Origin: Haliclystus octoradiatus
Taxonomy: Eukaryota > Cnidaria > Staurozoa > Stauromedusae > Haliclystidae
Direction: 5' to 3'
NCBI GenBank assembly: GCA_916610825.1
Contig: OU744454.1
Location: forward strand, 3,247,821 to 3,311,820
Length of the DNA stretch: 64,000 bases
Part shown: positions 284 through 64,000 of the stretch, piece after piece
How the letters are laid out: every line of letters begins with the position of its first letter
How positions within the stretch are numbered: position 1 is the stretch's first letter
Notes under the pieces: model-generated
The model's input: only the letters and a program-made list of their open reading frames with translations
Database searches by the model: none
Told to the model about the DNA's origin: nothing
Made by a program: the position numbers and the translations under genes

Positions 284-3200
284 TCATTTGCGTCCGTAAT
301 AGTCAGGTGGACGTCTTGAACGGGTTGGGTATCGCGGAGTATCGTCGGACTGCACTTGATCACTCACGTCTGGTTCTGCTATGTCGTCGGAACTAGTATC
401 AGGGGCAACATGCAGGAATACACGGTTACGCCACTTGAGTTTACCGGACGGCAGACGAATGCGATAATCACGATCATTCTTTGACACTACAATACCATCT
501 TCTATCCAGCGTTTACTTTGCGGATGTTGAAGTAGCACATGAGAGCCAACAGGAATAGATTTTAGAACTTTACTACCTTTGTTGTAATTCTTTGTGGTAG
601 CTTCTTTGTTGCGGAGTAGCTTACTGTCAATCTCTTTGGCTGACGTTTGCCATGAACGGGAGAATGAAGTGTAGTGTGCGGGCACTAAAGAACGAAGGGG
701 ATGACCATACACCCATTCCGAGGGGGAACGCCCTTCTGATCTAGGAGTGTTGCGGTATTCTAGTAGACCTTGCAGAAAACTCTCCGACTTAATATCTCCA
801 TTATCACACTTGGCAAGCAGATGTTTTAACGCTTTAACAGCTGCTTCAGCGTGACCGTTGCTCTGGGGATGGTATGGCGAAGACGGGGACCAATTGACAC
901 CCCATCTGGTGAGAAAGTTGGTGAACAGTTCAGATTTAAATTGTGGACCACCGTCCGAACGAAAACGAGATGGTACACCGGTTTTGGAAAAGTGTGATTT
1001 AAGAACTGAAATGACTTGAGACGAAGACGGATCGGAATTCCATTCTGAAATGAACGGAAAGCCGGATAAACGGTCGACGTAGACCAAATAGTATTTCTGG
1101 TTGAGTTGGAACAAATCAGCTGAAACTGACTCAAAGATCCGTGATGGAAGTTTATCAGAAATTAAAGGTTCTTTCTGATTACTGGGTCTGTAATGTTGAC
1201 ATGGTGAACAGGCTTCAATGGAGGATACAATGTCATTGTTAATACCTGGCCAATATACAGTTTGACGCGCACGACGTTTTGTTTTAACAATGCCCTGATG
1301 TGAGGCGTGTAATCGTGCAATTACAGATTGACGAGCTTTCGATGGAATGACAATTCGACGACCATACAACACAAGGCCGTCGATGGTTGACAATTCTGGC
1401 CAAATTTTCTTATAGGCCAATACATATGGTTGGTTTGCTGAATTACCTGCGAAATTGTTTTCAACACAGGTTATGAGTGATTGATAATCTGCATCATTTC
1501 GTGCAACATTTTGTAGATCCGTAATGATTGGATCCGGCAACGGTTGTCGAACATTAGATTGTTTAGAATCGTTTAGAGTAGCGGCAGCTTCATCGTCAGT
1601 GTTCTCTGCGGTGATACTACATGCAGCAACTTTTAACGTAAACGACATACAAGCTAACGATGTATCATTTTCAATTTCATCATCGAGAGACGGATCATTG
1701 ACCGGTGCCCGTGATAATGCATCCGGTATAATATGCGCGCTACCTTTTGTCCAAACCACCTGAAATTGATAGTTTGACAACTTATTTTTATACGATTGTA
1801 ACTTGTGATTTTCAACGGCATCTAAAGTGTAATTGTTAAAAATTGGCAATAAAGGTTTGTGATCGACTAAAACGGTATACGTTGGTAAACCAGCGAGATA
1901 AATGTGGCATTTTTTTGTGGCCCAAACGATGGCCAGCGCTTCTAGTTCGATAATGGCATATCGGTTTTCACATGGTTGAAGAAAGCGCGATCCACACTGG
2001 ATTAGTTTCCATTCGTTTTGCTGTTTTTGCATTAAAGCGTATCCAAGACCTTTTGTCTTGGAAGCGTCCGTTTGTAAAACTGTTTCTGCAGTAGGGTCGA
2101 ACAGAGACAAAATCGGCGGTGACGTCATGGCTTCTTTTAATGAATTGAAGGCCATTTCGTGCGTGTTTAGCCATAGAAATTCATTTTTGACTGATAATAA
2201 ATCTCGTAGTGGTGCAGCGGTGCTGCTGATAGACGGTGTAAACATTCCTAGCTGATTGACAAGTCCTAGGAATGACCTTAACTCGGTGCGATTTGTAGGC
2301 GAAGGAAAATTTGAAATCGCTTCGACTTTTCTTGGGTCGGCTGAATAGCCTCCTGGTTTTATGACGTAACCAACGAAATCGACTGTTTTCTGCGCAAATT
2401 TACATTTTTCAGCATTTAACGTAATGCCATGTCGAACAAATCGTTCTAATACTGTACAAGTTCGATCAACTAAAGTTTTGTATGAATCACCGTCAATAAG
2501 TGTATCATCAACGACTTTGTTAACGTTTGAAATGCCTTCAAGGGCTTGATCACATCTTAAATTGTAACTATCACCGGATGATATAAAACCCATCGGGGCA
2601 CGCAAAAATTTAAATCTACCCCAAGGAGTGATAAATGTTGTTAATTTTTGTGCATCTTCATCAAGTGGAAGTTGCCAATAACCACACTTTGCATCTAATA
2701 AAGTGAAATACTTGGAATGCAAATCAATGTTTTTCACTGCATCAGCTGGCGTTGTAGCAGGGTGCAATGTGCGTTTTACTTGCTTATTTAATTTGGTTAA
2801 GTCTACGCATAATCTTACGCCACCGTTAGGTTTACCTACAACTACTAACGGATGACACCATTCGACAGGGGTGTCACCAACTGGTGTTATAACGCCCATC
2901 TTTTGTAGACGGTCTATTTCAGATTTAGCCTTGTCACGATAAACGAAAGGTATTTGACGTGCAGTATGAACTGCAAATGGCTTGTGGTCTTCGATTAACT
3001 CAATTTTCATTGCGTCGCCGACACCTGACATGGGCGGCAAAACGTCATCGGTATCGCAAAATACTTGAGAATAAATCTGTTTTAGTTTTTTAAAATCATC
3101 CTCTCTTTGTTGTTGAGTAGGATTTGACGACAAAGAATCAATCCACTGTTTACGAGCGGTTTCATTAAAAACAGATTTAGGTGGTGATGAAGACTTGTTG

Positions 3201-4864: not shown

Positions 4865-4920
4865 CGTGACGCAATAAAATTAAACTCTTTGAATAACGTA
4901 AAATATTACTGTCCAAATAA

Positions 4921-5118: not shown

Positions 5119-6650
5119 AAATCGATATTAAAACCCAAAATTAAAATTTCTGTTTTGAAATATTAGGAGAATCTATCAGCAAATTTCCCATGCATGGGAC
5201 GTCCCATGATAGTAATGTATGAGGGATCACCCTGGGTAACAATTACATGTTAAGTATGAAATTCATGAAAAGGTAATTTAATCGCTATTAAAACCCAAAA
5301 TTAAAAATTCTGTTTTGAAATATTAGGAGAATCTATAAGCGAATTTCCCATGCATGGGACGTCCCATGAGGGTTCACCCTGGGTAACAATTACATGTTAA
5401 GTATGAAATTCATGAAAAGGTAATTTAATCGATATTAAAACCCAAAATTAAAAATTCTATTTTGAAATATTAGGAGAATCTATAAGCGAATTTCTTATGA
5501 ATGGGACGTCCCATGATAGTAATGTATGAGGGATCACCCTGGGTAACAATTACATGTTAAGTATGAGATTCATGAAAAGGTAACGTAATCGATATTAAAA
5601 CCCAAAATTAAAATTTCTGTTTTGAAATATTAGGAGAATCTATAAGCGAATTTCTCATGAATGGGACGTCCCATGATAGTAATGTATGAAGGATCACCCT
5701 GGGTAACAATTACATGTTAAGTATGAAATTCATGAAAAGGTAATTTAATCGCTATTAAAACCCAAAATTAAAAATTCAGTTTTGAAATATTAGGAGAATC
5801 TATAAGCGAATTTCTCATGAATGGGACGTCCCATGATAGTAATGTATGAGGGATCACCCTGGGTAACAATTACATGTCAAGTATGAAATTCATGAAAAGG
5901 TAATTTAATCGATATTAAAACCCAAAATTAAAAATTCTGTTTTGAAATATTAGGAGAATCTATAAGCGAATTTCCCATGCATGGGACGTCCCATGAGGGT
6001 TCCCCCTGGGTAACAATTATATGTTAAGTATGAGATTCATGAAAAGGTAACGTAATCGATATTAAAACCCAAAATTAAAAATTCTGTTTTGAAATATTAG
6101 GAAAATCTATAAGCGAATTTCTCATGAATGGGACATCCCATGATAGTAATGTATGAGGGATCACCCTGGATAACAATTACATGTTAAGTATGAGATTCAT
6201 GAAAAGGTAACATAATCGATATTAGAACCCAAAATTAAAATTTCTGTTTTGAAATATTAGGAGAATCTATAAGCGAATTTCTCATGAATGGGACGTCCCA
6301 TGATAGCAATGTATGAGGGATCACCCTGGGTAACAATTACATGTTAAGTATGAAATTCATGAAAAGGTAATTTAGTCGCTATTAAAACCCAAAATTAAAA
6401 ATTCAGTTTTGAAATATTAGGAGAATCTATAAGTGAATTTCCCATTCATGGGACGTCCCATGAGGGTTCACCCTGGGTAACAATTACATGTTAAGTATGA
6501 GATTCATGAAAAGGTAATTTAATCGATATTAAAACCCAAAATTAAAAATTCTGTTTTGAAATATTAGGAGAATCTATAAGCGAATTTCTCATGAATGGGA
6601 CGTCCCATGATAGTAATGTATGAGGGGTCACCCTGGGTAACAATTGTAAT
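5118..6650. repeat. Satellite array, 160-bp and 147-bp units, about ten copies
   Basis: Copies of the core ATTAAAACCCAAAATTA start near 5127, 5287, 5434, 5594, 5754, 5914, 6061, 6221, 6381 and 6528. The spacings are 160,147,160,160,160,147,160,160,147. Short units lack 13 bp (about ATAGTAATGTATG) between two CATGA copies. Each unit carries the perfect palindrome ATGGGACGTCCCAT or a close variant. The array ends within about 10 bp of the splice donor of myosin exon 30 and was the target of the gypsy insertion. Confidence 0.95.
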
Positions 6651-6657
6651 TACCTAC

Positions 6658-39626
<32,969 letters not shown>

Positions 39627-42488: not shown

Positions 42489-42739
42489 TTAGACGTTATT
42501 ATCGTAGGACGTAACGACGAGTTGAACGCGACAACATATAGCAGATGAATAATTCTTATTACATTTACAGACGCACATGTTACCATAAAGTATATGCCAG
42601 CTATCACATCCGGGACCACAGTTACAACATGTTGCCATGTAACCACTTGTACATGACGCAGTATCACCCTTGGAATTAGTTACGTATTTACATTGTAATT
42701 GGCCTGATTTACCATCCGCACCATCGTCACCTTTGTCAC
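42489..42739 (-). CDS. Minus collagen-resistin gene, exon 6 (resistin-like head)
   Basis: Last collagen triplets (GDKGDDGADGKSG), then the Cys-rich head and stop at 42489. An extra Cys (ATCCNC where resistin has TGCTC) is present. Confidence 0.9.
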
Positions 42740-45700
42740 CTAATAATGTGAAAAACAACATTATAGATTAATTAAGCAATACCGTATGTAAGAGTATAAC
42801 ATATGAAAGCAATATTCCAGACATGAGAATTCAAATTTCAAAAATAGATTTTAATTTTAATCGATTTCAATGGCAAAAAGCAACAACTAGAATTTCACAA
42901 AGCCCAAAATAGTCTGAAATTCGCCAAAAGTCTAAAAAATCTCATGTCTGATATCCTGAAATCTGATTGGTCGAATTAATTAACAGTACTATATTCAACG
43001 TTCAACATTATAGCTTCGATAATGATTTAAAAATTCTATCTTCGATAACGGCAAAAAAAATTTGGGCTGTTTTATCAACCAATCAAAATGCAAAACATGA
43101 AAAATGAGACAATAATTTAAAAAAAAAAGATTAATTATTGCAGAAAATTAAAAAATAGAGATATTATGGAGAGAAGGTATTTTATCATGCGGAAAGCAAG
43201 ATTCGTAAAACCATGAATTAACAGACCAATCATTCTAAGTAGTAGCCATTCAAATAAAAATGGCATAGATCTAGTCTTAATTAAATATTAGTAAAGACAA
43301 TCTTCTTACCCTTTGGTCCAGCTGGGCCTACATCTCCTTTGCCACCTTTTTCTCCTGTGTTTCCTTTGTCTCCTTTTGGTCCAGTATCACCTGTATCTCC
43401 ATTGCCACCATTGTCACCTTTTGGTCCTACTGGTCCAACTGGGCCTGTATCTCCTTTGCCGCCTTTGAATCCTTTGGATCCTTTGTGTCCTTTTGATCCC
43501 TTCTGGCCGTTATCACCCTTTTCTCCGGCATTTCCATTGTTTCCCTTATCACCTTTTGGTCCTGCTGGACCCATTGGGCCAGTATTACCCTTTGCTCCTC
43601 CGTTGCCTTGCATTCCCTTTTGTCCTGGGCCACCGTTTGTTCCTGGCTTTCCATTGCTACCTTGGTTGCCTTTCTCACCCATTGGTCCACGTCCTCCTGT
43701 TGGTCCTTCTGATCCTTTCATGCCCTTTTTACCTGCATCACCTTTATCCCCCTTGGCACCGTCGTTTCCTTGCGAGCCTTTCATGCCAGTTTGTCCATTA
43801 TTTCCTTTGTCACCTTTCTCTCCACGTGCACCACCGGGACCTTAAAAAAAATTAAAATCACAAAATCAATACAAAGTAAAATTAAACAACTCTCATTCAG
43901 CAAGCATTTACAAAATAGAATATAATAAATTCCATCATTACAATCCGCCAAGCATCCTAAAATACAAAATTGTAGATGAACAGTTTTCAAATAGACTGAA
44001 ACCAAGATTAATCGTTATTTGGCATTGAATAAACACACCAGAATGTCATTAACACTAATATGGTCATTGGTCACTGAACTTAAGCCCAAAAATCCTTAAT
44101 ATGAATGTTTCTCGCAACTCACGTACAAAGTCAAATAACAATCGTATACCTTTCATTCCTTTGGGTCCGACAGGTCCAGGGCCACCAGTTGAGCCACTGT
44201 TACCCTTGGCGCCATTGTTGCCCTTTGCTCCGGTGTTGCCCTTTGAACCTTTGTTTCCTGTCATTCCTGTTGCACCATTTGGGCCTTGTGGTCCTCTAAT
44301 ACCTTTGAGACCCTTTGCTCCCTTCTGTCCAGATGGTCCTGTAGATCCTTTTGGTCCAACTTCTCCTTTAGCTCCTGTTGCACCTTGCATTCCTTTGCTT
44401 CCTTTTGGACCAGTGTTTCCTGTTGGTCCTACATCTCCTTTTGGTCCTGCTGGTCCTCTTACGCCTTTCATTCCTTTTGATCCTTTAGATCCAGTTGATC
44501 CTTTGCTACCAGGATTTCCTTGTGGTCCAGGTGCACCAGTTGGTCCACCAGGTCCAGTATTTCCTTTGAGACCTTTGCTGCCTTTGGCTCCATTATTTCC
44601 AGTGTCGCCTTTGAGTCCATTGTTACCCGTCATTCCTTTTGGTCCTTTCATTCCTTTCTGTCCGTTGCTTCCTTTCTGTCCTGGTCCTCCGTTTGCTCCG
44701 TTTGTTCCATCTTTTCCTTTGTCTCCTTTCATTCCTTGTGGACCAGCTGGACCTCTGGATCCTTTGAGTCCTTGTTGACCTTTCTGTCCTCCTGGGCCTG
44801 TTTGTCCTTTGCTACCTTTGGTGCCTTTTGCTCCTGATGGACCGTTGCTACCTTTTGGGCCAGTGTTTCCTTTCATTCCAGTTGCACCAGGTCCTCCAGT
44901 GTTTCCTTTGTCACCCTTTGGACCAGTGTTTCCTTTCGTTCCTTTAGGTCCGTTTGAGCCTTTAGGTCCAAGATCACCCTTGTTGCCTTGGCTTCCTTTT
45001 GTTCCTTTGCTGCCTGTGCTTCCAGTTTTACCAGTCATTCCTTTTTGGCCTGGTTGTCCTTTTGGTCCAACTGCACCTGGTGGTCCTTTGAATCCCTTGC
45101 TACCTTTAGACCCTTGGCTTCCTTTAGATCCTGTTCTGCCTTTTGGTCCTGGAGGACCATTCATTCCTTTATCACCTTTCATGCCTTTACGTCCCGGGAC
45201 ACCTTTCATACCACGATTACCTTTACTGCCAGTGTCTCCCTTATCGCCATTGTCACCCTTTTCACCTTGATTCCCTTTCATACCATTATTGCCTTTCTGG
45301 CCTTTAACACCGTTGTTGCCATTGTTACCTTTTGGGCCTGGTGGTCCAGTTGCTCCTTTGGGACCTAAAGAATATAAACATTTCAAACATAAAAGTACTA
45401 CAAATGATAAAAAAAAATACTGAAACTTGATAAGGGTAATTTTGAGTACTACAAATGTTGAAAAAATACTGAAACTTGGATAAGGGTAATTTTGAATTTC
45501 AATAATAATTTATTTTTTTTTGAGTTTCATGTCAATTTGTATTGTCTAGACCTAAGGGTGAATCACACAATGTAGAAAATAAAAGTGGGTATCTTCTAAT
45601 GCTCATTTCATCTATATAATAATTTGATCATGGAAACTTGTTTTTAAGTGTTTTTATTGTGGGTTTCATTTGTTTTATTAAAATTATTTCAAACGTAAAA

Positions 45701-47572
45701 TAAATGAAATTTTACAATCGCCTTTATGAAAAGATTACTTTTCTAATATTACAGTGCAACCCACTTAACTTCAATTTGGTAAAAGGAAAGTCTTACTGAT
45801 CTGCAACTTGGATTTTAAAATCTTCATTTTATTCTAGAGCCAATTATTAGTTGAGAATGTTTGGATAAATGGAATAGAAATTGTTGAAAAATTGGACTTG
45901 TACTTTAGTGGATTTTACAGTATCATCATAATCATCATCATTTATTCATGACCTTAAATCTTAAACAAATTTTTTTTCAAAGGACTGATCTACCGATAGA
46001 TTGTCCTGCTCCACACGTAATCGATTAATATCGCGGCTGAGATCAGTAAAGTGCGATCAGTAAAGCAATCATTGCTTTTAGCGAAAAGAGCAACTCTTCT
46101 AGAAATAAAGGTGTGGTATGGGTGCCTACGGTAGGGCAACATAGTCTACATTACTTACTAAGTAATCGATATCAAAAGTGTACTAACCTTTTTGACAAAC
46201 AATACATTTATTACATAAGTAGTTGTTTGACCATCCAGCAGCATATGGGACATACCAGCGGATACATTTGACACAAGAACCCGTATGTGGACCATTATGA
46301 GACCAGATGAATTGTAAAGGTGAACTATTTGGTACGCAAATGTAATTATTATTCCATCCTTTAGAAGCTGGTGCGCTTGGCTCAGTGACTTTAGTACAAC
46401 GTTTACCAGGAATTGTTCCTATTAATGTAAAATAATATCATATAAAGGTAAATTTTAAATCAATGCCTTGGTAAAATAAATAGACGAGCGAAATCCTAAA
46501 AATTGTTGCGAAACTGTGTCGGATAACATTAAATGGTGCCGGATAATATTAAATTGTGCCGGATAATATTAAATTGTGCCGGATAATATTAAATTGTGTC
46601 GGATAATATTAAATTGTGTAGAATAATATTTAATTGTGTCGGATAATATTAAATTGTGTCGGATAATATTAAATTGTGCCGGATAATATTAAATTGTGAA
46701 GGATAATATTAAATTGTGTCGGATAACATTAAATTGTATCTGATAATATTAACAGGTGAAAAATTATCCAAAACTTACCACTATGAGACCATACAATTCC
46801 AGGATGTCTACGTCCTAATTTCCAACAAAGAAATGTTTTTTGTGCAAAACTAGAATCATTTGGTTCTTTTATTTGTAAGCATGTGTAGCCATATCTGTAG
46901 CCAGTGTAACTCCAAATGTATTCTTGAGGAAATGCAGGGAATTGTAATGATGTACCGGTTGCTGGAATATTCAAAAAATAGATTAGAAAAGTAATGTTAA
47001 AAATATGTAACATTATTTGAAAACAGATTGGAAATATATCGGAGCTTTATTTCTAGGCAATACATAATAGAAAACTAATTCTCAAAATATAGGACATTGA
47101 TTAGAAATATATCGGAACTTCTTTTCTAGAATACCAAAGCAATAATACTACTTTGAGGTTTAAAATTCAATTTACCCTACGTATCACACGGTAATGCGTG
47201 GAGATGCCATGTTATAGTCAGAAAGCATGCCAAAATTTAAAAAAAAATCATATTCTACAATTGATCGATAATATAACTTCAAGGTTACAGTAAAAAGAAA
47301 ACTTCATACTCCAATAGAATTCTGCAGATTTCCTAGTATTGCATTGTAGAATAACACCATAAATTTTGGTCGGTTGTGAATGTGAAAATGTCTGCAGGTT
47401 CATTAGCTTCAAAAATGCAAAAATACTTAAACCATGATTTAAATTACTTAACATCTAAAATTATTATTAATATATCAAGAATAAAAATCAAATTCAACAT
47501 ACCTTCAGTAAACAGAACTTGGTGTGCTAAAGCCAATATAAAAAGTGTAGCAACACTTCCAATCAAACTCAT
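42489..47572 (-). CDS. Secreted collagen-like protein with resistin-like head (minus paralogue), 6 exons
   Basis: 826 residues over exons 47503-47572, 46779-46961, 46188-46418, 44150-45364, 43310-43840 and 42489-42739, all GT-AG, nearly all phase 1. A signal peptide (MSLIGSVATLFILALAHQ) is followed by a Cys/Trp-rich region of three modules with W-x-(N)-x-Y-(L/I)-C (about 25-161), 198 uninterrupted Gly-X-Y triplets rich in lysine, and a 70-residue head. The head follows resistin: C-x8-C-x-C-x3-C-x10-C-x-C-x-C-x8-CC, ending CCRVQL, against C-x8-C-x-C-x3-C-x10-C-x-C-x-C-x9-CC in vertebrate resistin. It is expected to be a secreted trimer. It is divergent from, and paralogous to, the plus-strand gene at 49525. 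Function unknown. Minicollagen and C1q heads do not fit the cysteine pattern. Confidence 0.88.
43310..43840 (-). CDS. Minus collagen-resistin gene, exon 5 (collagen)
   Basis: 531 nt, 59 Gly-X-Y triplets in unbroken register with both neighbours. Confidence 0.92.
44150..45364 (-). CDS. Minus collagen-resistin gene, exon 4 (collagen)
   Basis: 1215 nt, 135 Gly-X-Y triplets in one exon, lysine-rich (GPKG, GMKG, GSKG). Confidence 0.93.
46013..46165 (+). mobile_element. SINE family 3, 3' half
   Basis: CGGCTGAGATCAGTAAAG ... GGGTGCCTACGGTAGGGC, matching 17950-18075. Lies in the intron after exon 3 of the minus collagen gene. Confidence 0.7.
46188..46418 (-). CDS. Minus collagen-resistin gene, exon 3
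   Basis: 231 nt, modules two and three (GWNNNYICVPN, FIWSHNGPH, GWSNNYLCNKC). Same length as exon 3 of the paralogue. Confidence 0.9.
46521..46752. repeat. 20-bp minisatellite, about 11.5 units
   Basis: Unit GGATAATATTAAATTGTGTC, exactly 20 bp per copy, ending 27 bp from the exon 2 donor of the minus collagen gene. Confidence 0.95.
46779..46961 (-). CDS. Minus collagen-resistin gene, exon 2
   Basis: 183 nt, first Cys/Trp module (YGYTCLQIKEPNDSSFAQKT then FLC). Same length as exon 2 of the plus paralogue. Confidence 0.88.
47503..47572 (-). CDS. Minus collagen-resistin gene, exon 1 (signal peptide)
   Basis: ATG at 47572. MSLIGSVATLFILALAHQ is a clear hydrophobic leader. Donor GAAG|GTATG, phase 1. 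Confidence 0.85.
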
Positions 47573-47689
47573 TTTGATATCGAGTACAAATATTGTAGAT
47601 CAACTACGTTTGTCTCAATAGTATTGTAATCTTGCCAGTTCGACAAGCCAATGAAGGAAAGACTGAATAAGTTATCAACATACAGAAGC

Positions 47690-47697
47690 ATTTTATA
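47690..47697 (-). promoter_or_regulatory. TATA box of the minus collagen-resistin gene
   Basis: TATAAAAT on the minus strand, about 118 bp before the ATG and preceded by TTAATTGC. The plus paralogue has the same arrangement. Confidence 0.6.
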
Positions 47698-49382
47698 CGA
47701 GTAGCAATTAATTAAAGACAATTATTAATCATTTGAAATTTAATGAGGTTATAAAGTTAATTGATATTACATATAAACTGTCTAGTCATTGAATACATTT
47801 TATCATAAAGCATTGTGAATAATATATTCATTGTCTAGGCCATAAAAATCAGAAAATGAGGTAATAAAAATGTAAAAGTTTCCTGAGCAAGCATGCGGTT
47901 TTATAGAAATTTTATACAAAGACATATTTTTTCTGTACATGGTTATGAAACTTACTTTCAGTAAAATTGCTTCAAAAATATCTACTTGGGGGAGGAGAAT
48001 AAGATTCGAAAGTATTTGCCACCGCCCACTTGCACGGGGGTAGAGATGAGACCATTAATCTATATAAAAATTATTAATTTTTATTTAATTTATTTTGTTG
48101 TAAATTCAAAGTTTATGCTTAAAGAATATCAAGTACACGAGAATTGTGATTAAGTACTTTAGGATTTTAAACAACAAAAATGAAGGGGAGTTGAAATTAA
48201 TCTTAATCAAACGAAAATAATGTTAGAAACAGGGGAAGCTTATGGAAAAACTAGAGCTAGAAAATAAAGGTTTGAAGTGCAGAATATCGAATTGCATGAA
48301 AGAGATAATTTATATGGTCCATAAAATATATTAAACAAATCATAATTATTCTAATACTATTATTACGGATTTACGATACCAGTTGAATACCTCAGAAATA
48401 TGAAAAGAACTTTTCCGAGCATTTGTGGTAGTTCGCAAGACCCCCTTTTTGAATTTAAATATTGTTTTTGATTTTTCTAGTAGGGCGTGTATAACCACAT
48501 GCTAAACTTGAATAGAATTTAATTTTGTACTTTAAAAAAGCTTTCTACTTTCTACAATTCTTTGTTTGATAATTCTTCAGATGACGTTTTATCAAATAAA
48601 TAGAAATGACACACAATCTTAATTATAAAAAAATAAACATTTTGATATTGTTTTAAAGAAAACAAATGGCAACAGCGCTTTTTGTTATGCAATCGAAAAC
48701 ACTGAGGCCTATATCATTTAAAGTTTGTAAAAAGAATAAACTTTAATGCAAATGTCTAGTTGATTATAATAGTTTATAGTTGTGAAAAAGTTTAGGCTAA
48801 AGGGTGAAGTTAATCGTAGAAAACTATAAACTTTAGACAAACCACAAATATAGAAACAATTTGTTAACAAACAGACACCATTATTATTATTAAAAGAATA
48901 GCAAAATTGAAAGCAACGATAAAGCCACAGCATTTCTACACTTCTATGTATATACATCTATGTCTTTCTAGACTATCAAGTCCTGTGAAAAAATGTTTTG
49001 TGCATGCTAATACTAAATGATGACGAAGATTATGATATGCTAAAGAAAAATGTTCTTTAGGAATTTTGGCGCGAATTTCTAATTATATCAATTGACTTAT
49101 TATTTTTTTACAAAATTGCTCACCATGTGCTCTAAAGTCATTAAGTAAATAATTTAAAGTATTAATGATAGTTTCTACTACTTTAATTATTAATGAGACA
49201 GCATTAAAAGTCTGTTTCCTGATTTGAGATATATTTGTAAGCTAGACAATCGAATATAATTAAAACAAAATATCAAAAGCCCACGAGGTCAAGTGTTTTA
49301 AATTAGACAATAGATTAATTGAGTAAATATGTAATTAATATAATCTAAATACAATAGGCAGGCGGATCATATTAATTGCGCA

Positions 49383-49390
49383 TATAAAAA
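49383..49390 (+). promoter_or_regulatory. TATA box of the plus collagen-resistin gene
   Basis: TATAAAAA about 135 bp before the ATG at 49525, preceded by TTAATTGCGCA. A TSS near 49413 is inferred. Confidence 0.6.
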
Positions 49391-49524
49391 CTATGATGAA
49401 CTAAACCGCGAATGTACATTACTACATCAGCACTCGAGCTGAATGGTCTGAAGTGGTGTTAATATTTGTTTAAGTTATAAGTACATTTACTTTGTACAAG
49501 GTACAATATTATTTTGAAATCATC

Positions 49525-49570
49525 ATGAGGGCTTTTGTGCTCTGCATTTTACTCAGTGTTGCAGCTACAG
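49525..49570 (+). CDS. Plus collagen-resistin gene, exon 1 (signal peptide)
   Basis: MRAFVLCILLSVAAT, donor ACAG|GTATT, phase 1. Confidence 0.85.
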
Positions 49571-52500
49571 GTATTTAACTTCGATACAATATATTATTCT
49601 ATCAGAACATTACTATATATTTAAAAAAATTCTATATATGTACATCTGTAAAAACTTAATTTTGAAAGTTCTCATGAGCCTAGTTAAGTTTCCTCTCTTA
49701 AAGACAGTACGGTAATACCCATTTTCAATAAGAAACACTTTGTGAGCGTGGATCATTCGAATATATTATGTTTAGATATGGTATATACTTTTTTTCGTAT
49801 AGTCCATCTGCGCATTAGCGCCAAATTTAGCGTACTGATTGTTCTTTCCACTGCCACTTTTTTTTGGCAGTAAATTGTGATTGGCTATAATAAAATATAT
49901 GAACAGTCTGTCTGCACGCAGGCTAGATATGGTAGGGTCGTGGTGATTATTTGCATTTTTACAATTTCTTTATAAGTTAAAGCTAGCTAAATTTTGCTTT
50001 TACTGTCGATAATTTTATTATGCAATTAGTATATATGAGTTCATCGTAATCAATAAATGATTAAGTTTATAAAGCTATATGTAAGTTTGAATAAGCTCTT
50101 TTTAAACATTTTTTCAGAACTTTGTGTTTAATTTGCTTGTAATAAGAATAATTGAATAATGAATAAAATTAAAATTAAATTGAATATTTTCTATTTATTT
50201 TAGCATTGGCATCATCGCTACCGAAACCGCAATGGCCTGAAGATTTTTATTATAGTACGCACGGTCCTAAATATGGTTATACGTGTACTCATATTAAAAA
50301 TCCAGCAGCATCATACGGATGGAATAAGAATTACCTTTGCGTAAAAAATGGCAAACAAAATATTGGTCTTACATTTTCTATTAACGGTAAGGAATTATTG
50401 ACAATCAATGTCTATCAGTCATGAAATTTGCTGGAATTGATCCGCACTGTCAGCAGGCATTCAACATTGATAAAGACGGAACACTCCTAGGAATAATATA
50501 GCGGTAGCTTTCGAGTTTCGACTAAGTTACAAAGAACGTTATGGTGGGTCAACTTCTTTCTTTTATCGAAAGACGGACGATTTTAATTATTGTTAGTATA
50601 GTTCGATAATAATTATCTTGATGATAAATTGTTTGAACTTTATTCAATGTGAGAATATGTGATTGGTATATTTACCAGATATCGGATTAAATGAACCAGG
50701 ATATGGATTATAGTTTCATTGTCTTGTTGTTTTAGGCCCAATTGCTGGTAAGAAATGTACAAAGATATTTGAACCAGATGATAGTAGCAACTGGCAAAAT
50801 ACCTACATCTGTGTTAACACAAATTCAGGCCTTAATCTTCACTGGTCTCACCATGGGCCTTTATATACACCATGTACTTACTGTATTAAAATCTATGACC
50901 ATGGTGGTTATGGATATGGATGGACTAACAATTATTTGTGTCATCGATGTGGACCTAACACTAAAGGTAAACCCGACATTTAGCGTATAGAGTGAAAAAC
51001 ATCTATGCAATTGCAAACTCATTAATTCAGGGCCTGATCCATGTTTTTTGAGGCCAGAAGCACCTTTTGACATAGGCCTTTGACATGTCGTTAATACTAT
51101 AAAAGTTTTGATTTATCTTTTGTTTATCATAATACTGTTAGAAGAAAGTTGTGGAACAAAAGTCAATTACCTATTATCGATGTTCCTTTTCGTAAAATAA
51201 TTTTCCAGATTTTTTTTTCTTTGGGCCCGAGCCCAACGCCCATAGAATGCTTATTTTGCTTACAACTAAATCAGTGAACTTTTTCATTGAGTCTACAACT
51301 TCCGAGCAAGCTGCATGCGAGACAAATACCTTGCGGTTGACATTAGCCTGCTCGCAGGTTCTCTGTAAATCGAGAACTTAGTAGAGAAATAGAGTCTGCT
51401 AACCCGTGAATCTCCTGTTCTGCCAGATTTCCGATTTACAGAGAGTTTGCAAGCGCATTTAATGTGACATTGGAAATTTCAAGTTTAACATATTAACCTA
51501 ATTGTTGCCTCTTTATTGTATATCAATTAACCTTCGTTTGCAAATAATTACAGTCAAACCTGTTATAATAGTCACCTCTATACATGGGCCATCTGTTTAT
51601 AGTGTTCACTCTTGGTACGTTAATAATAGTATTTTCTATTGAATCAACCCTGTATATAAAACCCACTTGTATATAGTGGTCAATTTAATTATCTCTCATA
51701 GACAGGGTCCGACAAAAGTGGGGATCCTGGGATCCTAGTTCCCGGAAAGCTAGACAGAATTCAGAAGAAAATTGATGTTTTTAATGATTTATTGGTCAAA
51801 CATCAACAAAAAATTCAGAAGGAAATGTTGAAATGCCTCTAGGATTCTAGAAGGCTGAACCTTTTCGGACCCTGCTCTTAGATAGCTGTTATATACAGGT
51901 TTCACTGCATATGATCGTCTCATAATTAGATATAATGAACAATGTTCAGTAGAATGAAGAAAAGTTTAGCTTAAAACTTACAAGGTATAATCTTGATAAA
52001 CTTTGATGATGCAAACTACCAATTGATTTCTTCTCTTCTTAGGACCAGCTGGAGACATAGGCGCACCAGGACCAAAGGGACCATCAGGCTCGAACGGAGA
52101 TAACGGTGAGAAAGGAGAAGATGGTGACAAAGGCGATGAAGGACGAAAAGGCGGAAAAGGTCGCAAGGGAATGACTGGCAATAAAGGAATGAAAGGACTC
52201 ACTGGAGATCAAGGAGAAGACGGACAGAACGGTCAAAAAGGGCAAACAGGAAACAGGGGTGGTATGGGACCTAAAGGCAACCGTGGACAAGTAGGCGATA
52301 GAGGAGGCAGAGGGATGTTAGGGGCAAAGGGAAATCAAGGAGGTAGAGGAGGACGAGGGGATAAAGGTGGTCAAGGGGATACTGGTGCTACAGGTGGTAA
52401 CGGAGCAAATGGAATGACGGGAGCAAAAGGAATGAGGGGAGGACGAGGAGGAAGAGGAGATAGAGGTAATTACACTGTACACTGCCTTGTGTTCTTTAGT

Positions 52501-55500
52501 GCAGTGATTATAAATCTCATTTATCACATCATATACAGGATTCAGGAAATGACCTGTGCAAACGATTACATCTTCATAGTGGTCACGTTCAGCAAAATTC
52601 AGATGAGATTGATCTCTCCATTTCTTTTGATTAAGCTTTATTCTCTTAAATGGTTATAGTACCCAATTCAATAGCAAGTAAGAGCATAGGATCTTAGTAT
52701 TCCGTAGTATTTCGTAGCTTTTATTACATTGACAAGAAGTATCGTATGCGTTTTACTATAATCAAGGAGAGTAGACAATATACTGTACATCATTGTTGTT
52801 TTTATCTTGTCAGGTGATACAGGAGATACTGGTAACTCAGGTGCCAAAGGTCAAATGGGTAACAGGGGAAGAAAGGGTAAAAAAGGAGGGCGTGGCGATC
52901 AAGGTCCAATTGGGGAGATGGGCATCAGAGGTAGAGTTGGACAAAAAGGTATGAGAGGAGGCAGAGGACCAAACGGAGGCAGAGGAGATCGTGGAGTGGT
53001 TGGAGCACCAGGACCTAAAGGACGAAAAGGTCCCAAAGGAAATGCTGTAAGTTATTATTATAATAAGGTGTAGGTGATTAGGTTTTTCACGTTTCATTCT
53101 TCTAATTCTTTGGTCAGTCTCATTATTGATGTGGGCACTTTTCTGAAAAGGGCTATTGTTGATTTATGTGCTGCTGATATTTTCCACTGTTCATTATTGT
53201 AATTTCCCCCCTTGTTGATTGTCAAAGGGAGTATAGGATCTCCAGGAATTGGCAGTATGACCAGGTATAAGAAATTTCCTCCGATCAGCGGAACACCTCT
53301 TTTCTACCAGCTCCAAAACAAAGAAAATGTTTCCTCCCATTTGACTGAGCTTTATTCTCATACATGTATGACTGGTGCTCGTTTGTGGGCAACTACCTCT
53401 TTGTGTTTTGCTACCAACCTCACATCAACCAAGTGCCTAGGCTAAACTATCATATGTTAAGCATTTGAGACAAAGGGTTTATCAGAAATATTTAAGAAGC
53501 ATTTTCATGCAAAATTATATATAACTTTTGATCATCCGCAATTGTTACTTTTATATTTCAATTAACGTTATAATAAATGCATATGTGTATCTCATAGTTT
53601 AGTAGGTTAGTCAGTCCTATGAGAACAAAATGTGTAAGGTTTTCTGAATAACTTCATCTGAGCGAGTTGCACTGTACTAACGGCAATATTGGGTTATTTT
53701 CTTCAAGGGTATTCCGGGTATTCGAGGAAAGAAAGGAAGCAAAGGTGCCAGTGGTGCAAAAGGTATGGTAGGCGATCAAGGTGACAAGGGAAGACAAGGC
53801 AGAAAGGGAACAAAAGGACCAAGGGGTAACAGAGGAGGAAATGGTGATAAGGGAGACATTGGTGACGTAGGACCTAAAGGAAGAACAGGACGAATGGGAC
53901 CAAAAGGTCTTAAAGGTGGACGTGGTGATAGAGGTGGTAGAGGTGATAATGGTGACATTGGTATGATTGGGAAGAAAGGCCCACGAGGACCAAAAGGAGT
54001 ACGAGGCATGGCTGGTCCAGGCGGAGATAAAGGGTCTAATGGTAGACAAGGAAGAAGAGGAGATAGAGGAAAAGTAGGAGGCAGAGGAACAAAGGGGGGA
54101 CCAGGTGCACCTGGCATGGCTGGAGAACCAGGAATTAAAGGAAGAAGGTAAATGACAAATCAAATTGTCAACAATTCTCGTTGCGTTAATCCGAATATAC
54201 ACTTATCCAAAATTGTTTATCAAGGATTGGACCAGAAAATAATTTAGTTTCAGATTCAGGCTGTAGATAAGCGGGAATTTCATTTATCCGAACTTCACTT
54301 GAGTGAAAACAATGAAAATAATAGGGGGGACATATACTGTAATGAATTGAATACCGCTAATTTTAAACTGAAATGAAAAAAACCCACAGATAATGAGTAA
54401 CAAAAAACATAATGTGGGCTGCTTCTAGTATTTCAATTGAAACTCCAGCATATATGCAACATATCACAACAAATAATTTCTCACATCACATGTTTTTCTC
54501 TCATTTGATTAGCAAAAGTAAATTTAACATCTATTTCAATTATATTTCAGAGGACAAAAAGGTCAAAATGGTGGCAGAGGAGATAATGGCGATAAAGGAG
54601 GCAATGGTGATATGGGCCAAAAAGGTCAAAATGGTCGACGAGGTGGACCTGGTAGTAAAGGTAAGATTCTATAGGGATATGATTACTATAATTATTAATA
54701 AATGGTACAGTCAAATATGTTATAACGGTCACCTCTATACAGCGACCACATGTATGTAGTCAATTTCGGTATGTCTGTAATAGTATTTTATATTGAATGA
54801 ACCCTGTTAATAAAGGCCACCTTCATATAGTGGTCAATTTATCTATCTCTCATAGCTGGCTGTTAAATACAGGTTAGTCACTACATATGCTTTATCAATT
54901 CAGTGAAGAATATGGAAGACACTGGCAGACAATATAGGACTTGGTTCCAAGGGCTGTCTGCAGCCTGTCAGTAGAGGCACAGCAGACACATGCCAACAAG
55001 TTACCCTAGGTTATTTTTTTTAGTGAAAACAATGCCTATAAAATAAAATTGTTTGTCAAGGTTGTAATAGACAAAATTCAAACCAGGTCAAGATTAAAAA
55101 AAAATTCTAATGAAAAATATATTGATACAATGAAACCTGTATATAGCAGGCAGCTACGAGAGGTAGATAAATTGACCACTATAGACAGGTGGCCTTTATA
55201 TAGATGTTCGATTCAATAGAAAATATTATTTTGGACATTGCAAGAGTGACCACTATAGACAGGTGGCCGTTGTATAGAAGTTACCGTTATAACAGGTTTG
55301 ACTGTAACAATTTATTGTTACTGTGATACTATTTATAGCTATAACTATAGACTGTAGACTGTAACTATAGAATTATAGACTGTAACTATTTATAGTTATT
55401 GTGATACTGAATCTCTCACATTTTGTGTGTAGAATCACGTTGCAAATATTTCATTTCAATAGAGAGATAAAAAGAAAGCTGATCTAGATTACTCATTCTG

Positions 55501-57327
55501 CATGCTTATAAAAACAATTCAAAGTAGTTGCAAGTAACATATTAGGTTGAGCAACTAAAGTGAGGAAAATACAATGTTGACTGTGACTTTGTTCAGTATT
55601 TTTAGCGAATTTGTATGTTTTTCTACATTTAAAAGCTCTTAAAAATGTGTCTTTCTTATTGAGATTCAATCCTATGCTTGGTTTCAGTATATTTTCAACA
55701 AGATTTGTACCTTTAAATCTGAGCTGTATGTTTGAATAAAATGTTTCATTTTTATTTCATTCCAGGTCCAGATGGAGAGAAGGGAAATCAAGGACCCAAA
55801 GGATTAGTAGGGATGACAGGACAAAAAGGAAACAAAGGTGGGGTCGGAGAAAATGGAAATAAAGGGGGCAAGGGAAGTAAAGGATCAGATGGAGCAACTG
55901 GAATGATTGGAGCAAAGGGTAAGGAATCCCAACAATTCGATATGAGCTGCTGTAAATATTTCAATTTCATTCAATTGCCTCAGCTTTCAGAGCTTTACTC
56001 TGTTTTTATTTGTTTCCTAACTTCAAAATTTGATTCCCAACTTTAAGGGAAAAGTGTTGACGTAAAGCACTAACTTATCCTTTGATAACTGTACAAAGCT
56101 ATTTGAAATTACAATAATAATAAGGAAGGATGCACATGACAATAAAGTAACAAGTAGAGTAAGAAATTAAGACTGAGTAATTCTATACTTGACAAATAAT
56201 TATTAAGTCTTGATGAAATGGAGCACATTTTTTTTGCAATCTACTGTCAAGTATGTCAACGGTCACTCTAGTAATGTCTAAATTATTAGTTTCTATTGAA
56301 TCAACCCTGTCTATAAAGGTCACCTGCATATAGTGGTAAATTTATCTACCTCTCATAGGCGGCTGTTACATACAGGTTTCACTGTATTATATTCTTCAAC
56401 ACCTGTCCTTTATAGAAGAACACTTCTCTCTAAGCTCAATGTAGCATATCAATATAAACAGTGTCCTAATAATTGAGTATGGTATTATTATTTTAGGTCA
56501 AATGGGTCCAAAAGGATTCAAAGGCCCAAATGGTGCACCAGGGAATCCAGGTACTAATGGACAGAAAGGAACAAAGGGAGCAAAGGGAAACGATGGACCA
56601 AATGGAGGCGAAGGAGACCAAGGCCCAATGGGACCAAAAGGACCAGGTGGTGAAAACGGTGCAAAAGGTAGTAAGGGTGGAAATGGAGAAAGAGGAGGAC
56701 GTGGCCAAGGTGGTGATAGAGGAGATATAGGAGACAAGGGAGATACAGGGGATCAAGGACCACAAGGCCCTGCTGGTGGGACTGGAATGAAAGGCATGAA
56801 GGGAGGCCCAGGCGGTAAAGGACCTAATGGAGATGTTGGCGATAACGGGGGTAAAGGAGATCAAGGAGACGCAGGACCAAAGGGTAAGAGGCTTGCATGA
56901 TTTAAAATATAATCGAATGGAAAACCATGTTATGGCATTTTACAGCTACACTCGATTCATAGATAAGTTTACTTTACTGGTTATAAAACACACTAAAAGA
57001 TTATTGAAATTGAAGTAGGCTTAAAGATTGTTATTATTATTTATCATTGTTATTATTATAGGTCCTAAAGGAGGTCCAGGAAGCGACGGCAAAGATGTCT
57101 CGCACACTCTTATGTGTACGTTAAAGAAAGCAGTTGACGTTAAAACAGTTACGTGTGCAAGTGGTTATCAATTAACTGGTTGTTCGTGTTCGTCTAGCTG
57201 TACTCATTGGTCAGCATATGGAACAACATGTAAATGTCATTGCCCAACACCTCACAACAACGTATATGTACCTAAACTATCTGTTACGGCCAATTGTTGT
57301 CGTTTATCAAAGCCTATTAAAGTATAA
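49525..57327 (+). CDS. Secreted collagen-like protein with resistin-like head (plus paralogue), 10 exons
   Basis: 823 residues over exons 49525-49570, 50204-50386, 50736-50966, 52043-52465, 52814-53046, 53708-54147, 54551-54660, 55766-55918, 56497-56883 and 57062-57327, with GT-AG borders. Same plan as the minus paralogue: signal peptide (MRAFVLCILLSVAAT), three Cys/Trp modules (KNYLC, NTYIC, NNYLC), 198 uninterrupted Gly-X-Y triplets, and a resistin-like head with C-x8-C-x-C-x3-C-x9-C-x-C-x-C-x17-CC. The gap before the final CC is longer than in resistin. The helix is arginine-rich and contains nine RGD tripeptides; the paralogue has none. Triplet register is kept across every junction, including the phase-0 (exon 5/6) and phase-2 (6/7) introns, which supports the model. 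Role unknown; a secreted oligomeric matrix or humoral protein is likely. Confidence 0.88.
49797..49927. mobile_element. Partial TIR element (second copy of the 33582 type)
   Basis: Interior as at 33582-33706, ending AGTCTGTCTGCACGCAGGCTA, the inverse of that copy's left end. Confidence 0.55.
50204..50386 (+). CDS. Plus collagen-resistin gene, exon 2
   Basis: 183 nt. YGYTCTHIKNP...GWNKNYLCVKNG, the first Cys/Trp module. Confidence 0.9.
50736..50966 (+). CDS. Plus collagen-resistin gene, exon 3
   Basis: 231 nt. Modules two and three (NWQNTYICVN, LHWSHHGPL, GWTNNYLCHRC). Confidence 0.92.
51549..51909. mobile_element. TACAGTSAAACCTGT-family MITE interrupted by a hAT MITE
   Basis: TACAGTCAAACCTGTTATAAT ... 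ATACAGGTTTCACTGCA, with 51703-51874 inserted within it. In intron 3 of the plus collagen gene. Confidence 0.85.
51703..51874. mobile_element. hAT-type MITE nested in another MITE
   Basis: CAGGGTCCGACAAAAGTGG ... CTTTTCGGACCCTG, with 8-bp flanks CTCATAGA/CTCTTAGA (one mismatch). Confidence 0.88.
52043..52465 (+). CDS. Plus collagen-resistin gene, exon 4 (collagen)
   Basis: 423 nt, 47 triplets, two RGD sites. Confidence 0.93.
52814..53046 (+). CDS. Plus collagen-resistin gene, exon 5 (collagen)
   Basis: 233 nt. Ends GPKGNA in phase 0, two RGD sites. Confidence 0.88.
53708..54147 (+). CDS. Plus collagen-resistin gene, exon 6 (collagen)
   Basis: 440 nt starting GIPGIRGKKG, ending AG| in phase 2. 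Three RGD sites. Confidence 0.88.
54551..54660 (+). CDS. Plus collagen-resistin gene, exon 7 (collagen)
   Basis: 110 nt, GQKGQNGGRGDNGDKGG to GPGSK, phase 1 end. Confidence 0.9.
54706..54885. mobile_element. TACAGTSAAACCTGT-family MITE
   Basis: TACAGTCAAATATGTTATAAC ... TACAGGTTAGTCACTACA, in intron 7 of the plus collagen gene. Confidence 0.75.
55126..55306. mobile_element. TACAGTSAAACCTGT-family MITE
   Basis: TACAATGAAACCTGTATATAG ... TTATAACAGGTTTGACTGTA, in the same intron as 54706-54885. Confidence 0.8.
55766..55918 (+). CDS. Plus collagen-resistin gene, exon 8 (collagen)
   Basis: 153 nt, 17 triplets, GPDGEKGNQGPKG to GMIGAK. Confidence 0.92.
56241..56386. mobile_element. TACAGTSAAACCTGT-family MITE, left end degraded
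   Basis: TCACTCTAGTAATGTCTAAA ... ACATACAGGTTTCACTGTA, in intron 8 of the plus collagen gene. Confidence 0.7.
56497..56883 (+). CDS. Plus collagen-resistin gene, exon 9 (collagen)
   Basis: 387 nt, 43 triplets, GQMGPKGFKGPNG to GDAGPK. Confidence 0.93.
57062..57327 (+). CDS. Plus collagen-resistin gene, exon 10 (resistin-like head)
   Basis: GPKGGPGSDGKD, then the Cys-rich head (CASGYQLTGCSCSSSC, CKCHC, final CC). Stop TAA at 57325-57327. Confidence 0.9.
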
Positions 57328-60485: not shown

Positions 60486-61141
60486 TCAAACGCATCTTTC
60501 ATCATCCATAAGATTTCTTTTATCATCATTTTGGCTATTATTTGAATTAATCTGTTCTCTGACAGTTTCCAAGTGATCATAGGAATTATTAGAATCACTC
60601 GATACTGGTCTTGATTTATCGACATCGGCAGTATCCAAATGATCATATATATCTTCTGTAATTGGTTTAATATTATCATTCAAATGATTATAGATATCAT
60701 CATCAATGTTTTGTGATTTCTTCATACTATCATGATGATTATCCGGTTGTGATTTCATACTTTGATCATGTGATAATTTATCATACATACTCTCTTCAAC
60801 GTGAACACCACTATCTGTTCTTGATAACGTATCATATGTTGCTTCGTTATAACCATTGTTTGAAATACCATTAGATGGTGTGGTATCTTTGCATGGGAAA
60901 CGTAATATACTATAATCGGCATCTGGAGGCGGCCGCTTTAATGGCAATGTATTACTATGATCCAAACAATCATAAGTATCGTTACCAATAGGTCGTTTAG
61001 GTTCTAATGATATTGTTTTACAATAAATTGGATTTGTTGCTGTATTGTTGCTAGTATTGTTATCTGTTGGATGTTTTGCTGTGTCGTATATCGGATTCGG
61101 TTGCGCTGCACCATTGTCTAAAGTTTCGTATAGTATTGAAT
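60486..61141 (-). CDS. Receptor last exon: tyrosine-rich tail
   Basis: 218 codons plus TGA at 60486-60488. Both NPIY sites and all eight YxxL sites are here. Low-complexity, N/D-rich spacers. Confidence 0.82.
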
Positions 61142-63864
61142 CTACAAAACAAATCCAAAATCATAAATATTACACAACCGTAGTATAATTGAGGGAATAA
61201 ATCATCTGCCTGAGTTGGTGATAAATCTTGATGTGAAAACAATTCCAAATAAAAGTTCACGAAAACAGACCATTTAGAATAATATTGCATGTAGGTTTGA
61301 ATTAAGATATATTTCTTCAATATTCAATGGACGACATATTCTGACAAATGACTTATAAATTGGTGGATGGAAAGGTCCTGAAGAATTGCATTGTTAGTCG
61401 TTGCAGTGCATCGTTGCGCATTGAAAATTGAGGCCTATCTGCCATGAAATCTGTTGGAATTGAAATTGATCTGCAGTCTCGCAACTGAGATCAATAAGGA
61501 GCATTATCCGCGGAAAGAACCAATCTTCTAGAAATCAAAATTCTCAGCTGCTCTGCTTATCAACAAAAATAAATCTGTTTTCTAATCCATTCGATCAAAA
61601 ACTATTGAAAGTAAACAAATACTTTATAAATATGTTTACCTAAGAGATATATGACTTCAAGTCTTACGCTACCTTCAAAGTCCTGGCATTTATTGTTATT
61701 GAATAAAATTGTCTTGTAACTGATTGGTATTTATTAGCCTAACATTGATTACTTGATATTTGTTATTTATTTGATATCCCCTGCAAAAAACCAGATCAGG
61801 AGTTCATTAACAGTCCATGAACTTTTCATGAACTGATCATGAACCTTCACGGACAGTTCATGAACAGTTCATGAACTCTTGATCTGTTTTTTGCAAGGGA
61901 CTATCATAGCTGATATCAGAAACATATTATTAAATTGATATTCAAATACTACCTCTCTCTATAAAAAATAGTTCATGGGTTTATACAGTAGAAACTGCTT
62001 ATTACGTCCCCTTTTACAACGGATAACTCCTTATAACATATTGAATTTAACTTATTAGTCTGGTGAAGTTTGGTATCTTTCTTCTTATAAATAATTGGCT
62101 ATAACGGCACATAGTCTATAACATTAACAAGGTTTTCAAAGTTCCCTATGGATGTCGTTGTAAACAGTCTCTACTGTAAATGGTTCATGAACAATAAATG
62201 GCACCATTTTTATGAAATGGCTTATGAACTTTTCATCTTAATTCATGAACTGTTCATAAAAAGTTCATGAATAAGCATGAAACGTTCACGTTCATGGAAA
62301 AGTTCAATAAAATGGTGACATTTAAGGTTCATGAACTCATGAACAAGTGTTCATGAACTCATGAACCAGTTCCGCAGGGATAAAAGTTTCAAATATACAT
62401 ACCTTCAGGTCCGTCCATTCCTTCAAATTCAACAATGAGTTTACTACCAGATCTTGTACTGCACGAGAAATAAATAGATAAATAGATGAATATAGGGATT
62501 AGACTCGAGTCAAACAATCATGCTAAATATCCTCTTTCCTAGTATCCTCCTTTATAACGCAAACGCCAAACAATTTCTATCATTCACTTAACGATGCATG
62601 AGAGACATGCGAGGAGAAAATAAGGCATCAGAAAATCATGAGCAACAACGGCAAGTGATTTTTGTCTTTGGTTTCACTTTATGCGCCTCTTCTGTGCCAT
62701 AATAAAAGCTATGACTTATGTAGAAATGTTTTGTTTATTGCTTTCGACAATAGCTACCACACTTTTACACATTTTTTATCACATTTTTCTATGGTTTACA
62801 AAATTTCTGATCATAATCAAAATTCTCATTTGTCACATCAAGATCGCATTGTACAATAGATTGTGTTAATGTGAGACCGGAAACAGGAACAAACAAAAAT
62901 TGAGACAGGAACAAAGATTCATTAAGAAATCTAGACCATTAGCAAGGGTCTGACAAAAAGGTTCAACCTTCTGGAATCCTAGCGGCATTTCAAAATTTTC
63001 TTCTGAATTTTCTTGTTGATGTTTGACCAATAAATCATTAAAAATATCAATTTTTTCTGAATTTGCTGAAACCTTTCATAATCTAGGATTCCAGGATTCC
63101 TATTTTTGTTGAACCTTGTCACTAGCTCCTGTGTCACAGCATTCTTCCAGAAACTCTTTTTTGTTGGTTTCCCTAAATTTGTACAATGCCAATCGAATAC
63201 GAGAAACACAGAACCATCTACTTATAAGAGCGGGATCAAAAATCCCCAATACCGTTCCATTGAAAAGGGATCACGCAACTTTTGGTGATCAAAAATCCCC
63301 AATACCGTTCCATTGAAAACAAGATTTTGCTTCAGAACAAACAGTTTTTCAGATTCATGATTTTATTTTCGTAAGCTTTGCTCAAATTCAGCGAGCCTGG
63401 GTGTGACGGAACGAAAATGGCGTCCGTAAAATCATATGAGTGGCACCTGTCCGAAAGCAGCCGAGGGTGGCACATGGAAGAGTATCCCAACTCCTGTAAA
63501 TAGATGGCTCTGGAGAAACCCCACCTTTGTATTCTGTGAAACATATCAATTATTAGCTTTCCATCTAGCTGATAACACTTCCAAAGAACAAAACCATTCC
63601 CTGAATAGTGACAATCTTGACTGGAGTAATTAGTCATAATTTACTAGATGACCTATACTGTGTCATTAAAATGTTGAATTAATAAAATTTAATGAAATGT
63701 AGTGAAGTGTCATGCTTCCTACCTTGCTTTAACACTAATGCCTTTAAATGACTTTTTACGTCTTGAAATAATGATATATCCCGCAACAATACAACAAACC
63801 AACAGAATAACGATTGCAACTGGAATTGAAATTTTCATTGTTGAACTGATGCCTGTTGCAGAAT
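60486..63864 (-). CDS. C-terminal part of a single-pass receptor with NPxY and multiple YxxL motifs (CED-1/Draper/MEGF10-like tail)
   Basis: Three exons (63723-63864, 62403-62458, 60486-61141), GT-AG and in phase. They give a juxtamembrane piece (SATGISST), a transmembrane helix (ISIPVAIVILLVCCIVAGYI) with basic stop-transfer RRKK, and a cytoplasmic tail of about 250 residues. The tail holds two NPIY sites and eight YxxL sites (YETL, YDCL, YSIL, YDTL, YDKL, YNHL, YDHL, YDHL); YNHL and the first YDHL are 11 residues apart, within an ITAM-like spacing. NPxY plus YxxL is the signature of CED-1/Draper/MEGF10 engulfment receptors, where the motifs recruit PTB adaptors and SH2 kinases. The ectodomain enters in phase 1 and lies right of the window, so the family call is an inference. 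Confidence 0.75.
61375..61545 (+). mobile_element. SINE family 3, 3' half
   Basis: GCATCGTTGCGCATTGAAAAT ... AACTGAGATCAATAAGGAGC, matching 17885-18010. Confidence 0.7.
61778..61899. mobile_element. Inverted-repeat element built of TTCATGAAC palindromes
   Basis: Ends CCCTGCAAAAAACCAGATCA and TGATCTGTTTTTTGCAAGGG are inverted repeats. The interior is GTTCATGAACAGTTCATGAAC-like. Best-defined copy of the family. Confidence 0.8.
62170..62380. repeat. TTCATGAAC palindrome cluster
   Basis: Dense run of TTCATGAAC variants ending GTTCCGCAGGGAT, just downstream (transcript sense) of receptor exon 62403-62458. Confidence 0.6.
62403..62458 (-). CDS. Receptor short juxtamembrane cytoplasmic exon
   Basis: STRSGSKLIVEFEGMDGPE, 56 nt, phase-matched to both neighbours. 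Confidence 0.72.
62943..63119. mobile_element. hAT-type MITE (GGTCCGACAAAAG family)
   Basis: CAAGGGTCTGACAAAAAGG ... TTTTTGTTGAACCTTG with the family interior. Target duplication unclear. Confidence 0.7.
63233..63320. repeat. Short direct duplication
   Basis: GATCAAAAATCCCCAATACC plus CGTTCCATTGAAAA occurs twice, about 56 bp apart, in the receptor intron. No function apparent. Confidence 0.75.
63723..63864 (-). CDS. Receptor exon with transmembrane helix
   Basis: Acceptor TTGTAG|ATTCTGC, phase 1 in, phase 2 out. Hydrophobic 22-residue helix then RRKKSFKG. Confidence 0.8.
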
Positions 63865-64000
63865 CTACAACAACAACAAAAAAGAATTTGAAAATCAACA
63901 TCAGTATTAAAGCATTAACCATTAAAAGATAAACTTCAAAATGTATAACTACACTAGGTTCTTCGATTGCTTTCTCAAGTTTTTTCGAAAAAACGACGAG

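Follow-up and report, generated by a model that had tools for sequence, protein, structure and literature searches.

Can the cysteine-rich head of the hormone resistin be carried by a collagen stalk in an animal outside the vertebrates? The question is raised by a stretch of 64,000 nucleotides from the stauromedusan Haliclystus octoradiatus (Cnidaria; assembly GCA_916610825.1, contig OU744454.1, positions 3,247,821 to 3,311,820, forward strand), which as a whole is called the window here. Two predicted genes lie head to head in it, one on the minus strand (47572-42489, 826 amino acids) and one on the plus strand (49525-57327, 823 amino acids). Both proteins have the same domain order: a signal-peptide-like start, three cysteine repeats, a Gly-X-Y run, and a C-terminal resistin-type head. 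Pfam and PDB matches, the gene models, and a predicted fold bear out the proposal of a first-pass annotation that in two proteins, here seen to be paralogs, a resistin-family head stands C-terminal to a long collagen domain. This joining of collagen and resistin head is an unusual domain plan, and it is real and rests on homology.

The resistin-type heads

The cysteine order of resistin and the RELM proteins was searched in the six frames of the window as the pattern C-x8-C-x-C-x3-C-x9/10-C-x-C-x-C-x8 to 18-CC. It occurs twice, once in each C-terminal head, and in none of 60 windows simulated with matching first-order composition, so that the order first noticed stands. The minus head has one extra Cys adjoining the second Cys of the block. 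It does contain the flanking residues that had been singled out: VTNSKGD, CCRVQL, and a Trp following the fourth Cys.

The minus head scores 49.3 bits (E 7.4e-13) with the Pfam Resistin model (PF06954), whose curated cut-off is 25 bits. In the PDB it matches RELM-beta (E 1e-10) and resistin (2.9e-7 and 4.6e-7); 27 of 58 aligned residues are identical to RELM-beta, and 17 of 48 when paired cysteines are left aside. On these sequence matches the minus head is clearly homologous to resistin/RELM. A profile of the two heads finds RELM-beta (2.9e-7) and resistin (7.9e-5 and 1.1e-4) in the PDB, followed by hemocyanin (0.12) and PCSK9 (0.3). A Pfam scan of the heads (E up to 1) finds only Resistin and, weakly, PCSK9_C3, with no match to C1q, fibrinogen, or C-type lectin models.

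The plus head is the harder case. When its fold, predicted from window sequences only, is compared with the PDB by Foldseek, resistin, resistin, and RELM-beta take ranks 1-3, with the C-terminal domain of PCSK9 after them; the predicted fold is thus that of resistin. Two results make the case for this head weaker than first proposed. The Pfam Resistin score is 24.3 bits (E 4.6e-5), 0.7 bit under the cut-off, and the predicted fold agrees equally well with resistin and with the PCSK9 C-terminal module. None of the outcomes named as fatal to the original proposal came up: the Resistin model is matched, well above the cut-off by the minus head and narrowly below it by the plus head, the plus head has a predicted fold that matches resistin, and collagen runs into head within one exon. 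The minus head model is too poor for a fold test (mean predicted local distance difference test score, pLDDT, 55.6), and the lack of resistin among the 50 matches listed per fold search with it carries no weight. Alone, the plus head finds a single PDB match, RELM-beta at E 0.18. With a Pfam score under the cut-off, it is described here as resistin-like and grouped with the minus head as its paralog. Its homology to resistin/RELM is taken to follow from the predicted fold together with paralogy.

Gene models, collagen stalk, and paralogy

Exon borders were picked by reading the sequence and then checked by script, so that the models are predictions made without transcripts. All 14 introns across the two models are GT-AG and join in phase. 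Hydrophobic starts were taken as signal peptides by eye, and tblastn comparisons were run within the window with filters and composition correction off. The exons are as follows.

47503..47572, minus: exon 1, with the start Met and a hydrophobic stretch like a signal peptide; the ATG is in frame, the donor is GT, and the join is of phase 1
46779..46961, minus: exon 2, N-terminal cysteine repeats, first part; AG/GT borders, 183 base pairs (bp), equal in length to its plus counterpart, which it matches by tblastn at E 6.8e-11
46188..46418, minus: exon 3, second part of the N-terminal cysteine repeats; 231 bp, again equal to the plus counterpart, tblastn E 2.7e-20
44150..45364, minus: exon 4, collagen, Gly-X-Y unbroken
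43310..43840, minus: exon 5, collagen Gly-X-Y, in phase; the open frame around it (43284-43841) matches Pfam Collagen at E 3.3e-25
42489..42739, minus: exon 6, final collagen triplets, resistin head (Pfam Resistin 49.3 bits, PDB RELM-beta E 1e-10), and stop
49525..49570, plus: exon 1, with the start Met and a stretch like a signal peptide; the ATG is in frame, the donor is GT, and the join is of phase 1
50204..50386, plus: exon 2, N-terminal cysteine repeats, first part; 183 bp, tblastn to the minus counterpart
50736..50966, plus: exon 3, N-terminal cysteine repeats, second part; 231 bp, tblastn to the minus counterpart
52043..52465, plus: exon 4, collagen, Gly-X-Y unbroken and in phase
52814..53046, plus: exon 5, the same
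53708..54147, plus: exon 6, the same
54551..54660, plus: exon 7, the same
55766..55918, plus: exon 8, the same
56497..56883, plus: exon 9, the same
57062..57327, plus: exon 10, final collagen triplets, resistin-like head (24.3 bits with Pfam Resistin against a cut-off of 25; resistin twice and then RELM-beta at Foldseek ranks 1-3), and stop
47573..49524, no strand: 1952-bp stretch between the start codons of the divergent genes, which may serve both as a promoter region

In both genes a single last exon encodes the end of the collagen run and then the head in one open frame, and the link between collagen and head is therefore independent of the splice calls. An artefactual join, which the first-pass annotation had left to be settled, was rejected on this ground. 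The Gly-X-Y run is unbroken over 199 triplets in the minus protein and 198 in the plus protein, a long repeat as in the collagen superfamily; exon 5 of the minus gene is the one collagen exon scanned with Pfam. Since the run holds over three exons in the minus gene and over seven exons with three intron phases in the plus gene, an accidental repeat is not credible. The collagen parts are strongly basic. Net charge is +68 in the minus protein (93 Lys and 53 Pro in 597 residues) and +60 in the plus protein (67 Lys, 47 Arg, and 38 Pro in 594 residues). Lys takes the third position of 88/199 and 62/198 triplets in the minus and plus proteins, and Pro that of 12/199 and 11/198. The plus protein also has ten Arg-Gly-Asp (RGD) motifs.

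The N-terminus consists of three repeats of about 42 residues each, roughly WSxxGPxxGxxCxxIxEPxxxxxWxNNYLC, on exons within 46188-46961 (minus) and 50204-50966 (plus). No match of weight to the repeats was found in Pfam, in NCBIfam and the PDB (minus protein only), or in PHROGs (minus exon 3 only), and a profile of the six repeats against the PDB gave nothing of weight either. The WSxxGP cysteine repeats may be an undescribed domain. A minisatellite of 20-bp units, 12 copies (46511-46752), lies within the second intron of the minus gene.

Judged by sequence, the two divergently placed genes are paralogs. Exons 2 and 3 are equal in length between them (183 and 231 bp), and the proteins have in common 65 of 151 aligned residues at the N-termini and 21 of 62 in the heads, which find each other by tblastn within the window at E 1.7e-8. 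Non-synonymous difference is 0.42 in the N-terminus and 0.48 in the head, well below a synonymous difference that is saturated (0.76 and 0.75), which suggests that both genes have been kept by selection. In the rest of the 64-kilobase window, tblastn gave no further copy of the head or the N-terminus below E 0.15. A viral or prokaryotic source of the genes was considered and rejected: among viral and genome contigs, 214 and 138 short-pattern matches for the heads and 162 and 74 for the N-termini yielded 0 confirmed, in scans of two short patterns each by which only close relatives are detectable.

Proposed working and alternative readings

The reading we prefer, with a probability of about 0.78, is that these are paralogous secreted collagen proteins in which three resistin-homologous heads stand on a triple helix. 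The chains would be secreted, and three of them would wind into a collagen helix that holds the heads side by side and replaces the coiled-coil stalk of resistin. The resistin head follows a coiled-coil tail (PMC4474570); because the head here follows collagen, which is three-stranded by nature, the collagen helix is proposed as the trimeric stalk. By analogy, the heads would be displayed like those of resistin on their coiled coil and like C1q-type heads on collagen. With less confidence, the assembly may act as a multivalent binder in the extracellular matrix or in innate defence. The basic stalk would bind polyanions, and ligand binding or cross-linking of trimers would fall to the heads and the N-terminal cysteine repeats.

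Two functional readings are held tentatively and to the same degree. In the first, the proteins are mainly structural: a non-fibrillar collagen of the skeleton or basement matrix, whose head is a trimerisation and registration domain that starts helix folding without a ligand. The head does lie at the C-terminal end of the helix, like the trimerising domains of collagens VIII, X, and XVIII, and the triplet run is long and unbroken. However, the scarcity of third-position Pro and the high positive charge are unusual in load-bearing collagen. This structural role is best regarded as a functional variant of the preferred reading, and one to which we would give somewhat less than even odds. In the second, likewise possible without being favored, the proteins are defence binders like collectins, ficolins, and MARCO, in which a basic collagen stalk and the heads bind microbes. 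The domain plan and the basic stalk are in keeping with such a role, as is the tie of human resistin to inflammation (PMC4474570, PMC4467842).

A different alternative concerns the heads themselves, which might be PCSK9-type cysteine/histidine-rich modules and not resistin proper, so that the fold is common to both and the resemblance to the hormone is superfamily-wide. PCSK9 has a subtilisin-type protease part and several such modules per chain. Here each modelled chain has a single module and lacks a protease part; no Pfam protease model is matched by the N-terminal parts, and the proteins are not of the PCSK9 type as a whole. The minus head, with Resistin at E 7.4e-13 and RELM-beta at 1e-10 in the PDB, matches no PCSK9 model at E up to 1, and for the plus head Foldseek places resistin above PCSK9. 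A PCSK9-type identity is therefore improbable. In mammals, resistin and the PCSK9 C-terminal domain are both described as binding CAP1 (PMC10981688), which offers a possible lead to how the window proteins act.

Convergence of a disulfide-rich domain on a similar cysteine spacing is very improbable and was rejected on a control of 20 shuffles (10 per head, every Cys left in place), since, although the ten cysteines carry heavy weight and 3/20 shuffles (2/10 minus, 1/10 plus) weakly match Resistin at E up to 1 (11.2, 12.3, and 13.8 bits), a peak of 13.8 bits against 49.3 and 24.3 for the real heads means that spacing alone is insufficient for the Resistin scores, and 17/48 identity of the minus head to RELM-beta outside paired cysteines and the plus fold that puts resistin first speak for homology as well.

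Surroundings in the window and relation to known systems

The remainder of the window holds other genes, mobile elements, and repeats. Unconventional myosin exons, possibly of a single gene, lie on the minus strand at 6634-34287 (Pfam MyTH4 5e-22, myosin head 2.8e-22), and the MyTH4 exon is closest in the PDB to myosin VIIa (3.9e-33). At 60489-63884, minus strand, there is a candidate membrane protein with a hydrophobic exon near 63800 and a tail frame rich in tyrosine motifs. Its frames have no Pfam match above cut-off; the tail is possibly reminiscent of that of a signalling receptor, and the exons are putatively joined. An open frame at 22683-24257, plus strand, with THAP, HTH_Tnp_4, and DDE_Tnp_4 matches is a DNA transposon. 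Another at 25247-27997, minus strand, matches a YqaJ-like nuclease and a Ulp1-type protease and is likely a mobile element, and a long frame at 287-4879, minus strand, resembles by eye a retrotransposon polyprotein. The triplet ATA is repeated 136 times with 100% matches at 28801-29209, beside a tRNA-Arg(cct) gene (29306-29377), and a tandem array with periods of 160, 307, and 467 bp occupies 5120-6645. The guanine plus cytosine (G+C) content is 0.31 to 0.41 across 4-kilobase blocks. Such low G+C and such long collagen exons do not resemble those of vertebrates.

A 2015 survey (PMC4467842) records resistin genes for mammals, Sauria, amphibians, and coelacanth, and none for 8 birds, 17 ray-finned fishes, 1 cartilaginous fish, and 1 jawless fish; its main text nowhere uses the word "invertebrate". 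Resistin is placed among the domains emerging at mammal or later nodes by a survey of 2006 (PMC1654190). Table 2 of a paper on corals (PMC6214176) lists Pfam Resistin as present in anemones and not in corals, with no comment there on architecture, and the reference list of PMC7244123 includes a title on resistin-like peptides in the bee Osmia bicornis. Resistin-like domains outside vertebrates are thus already on record. The first-pass annotation knew of no described collagen-resistin protein. A search of open-licence papers likewise found none among the matches listed, although databases of domain architecture may include one.

Compared with resistin and the RELM proteins (PF06954; PDB 1rfx, 1rgx, 1rh7), the window proteins have the same C-terminal ten-Cys head, with the cysteines in the same order, similar flanks, and a stalk directly before it. 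They differ in that the stalk comprises about 198 collagen triplets in place of a short coiled coil and in having extra N-terminal cysteine repeats. Because they are 826 and 823 amino acids long, as against the 108 given for human resistin (PMC4474570), and carry a collagen stalk, they are not RELM hormones and only share the RELM domain. The sea anemone proteins are alike in bringing the Resistin model outside vertebrates, in a table that gives no architecture (PMC6214176). The C-terminal cysteine/histidine-rich domain of PCSK9 resembles the predicted fold of the plus head, but PCSK9 combines several modules with a protease, whereas here one module per chain is combined with collagen. A collagen stalk with a C-terminal globular head is also the plan of C1q/adiponectin, collectins, ficolins, and short-chain collagens; the heads in the window differ in being resistin-type, with no C1q or C-type lectin match at E up to 1.

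It is conceivable, though on balance doubtful, that the resistin head is an old animal module which secreted proteins with a collagen stalk first bore as their trimeric head, and that the vertebrate hormone is what was left once a coiled coil had taken the place of collagen. On this view the head may formerly have sat on long matrix or defence molecules of three strands as well as on a small hormone. A collagen-borne resistin head outside vertebrates would set the hormone in an older context and make physical sense of it, with a trimeric head placed on a trimeric stalk. Comparison of heads, stalks, and exon borders among animals could then put the origin of resistin to the test. If this is true, resistin and adiponectin make a pair of hormones whose heads go with collagen stalks.
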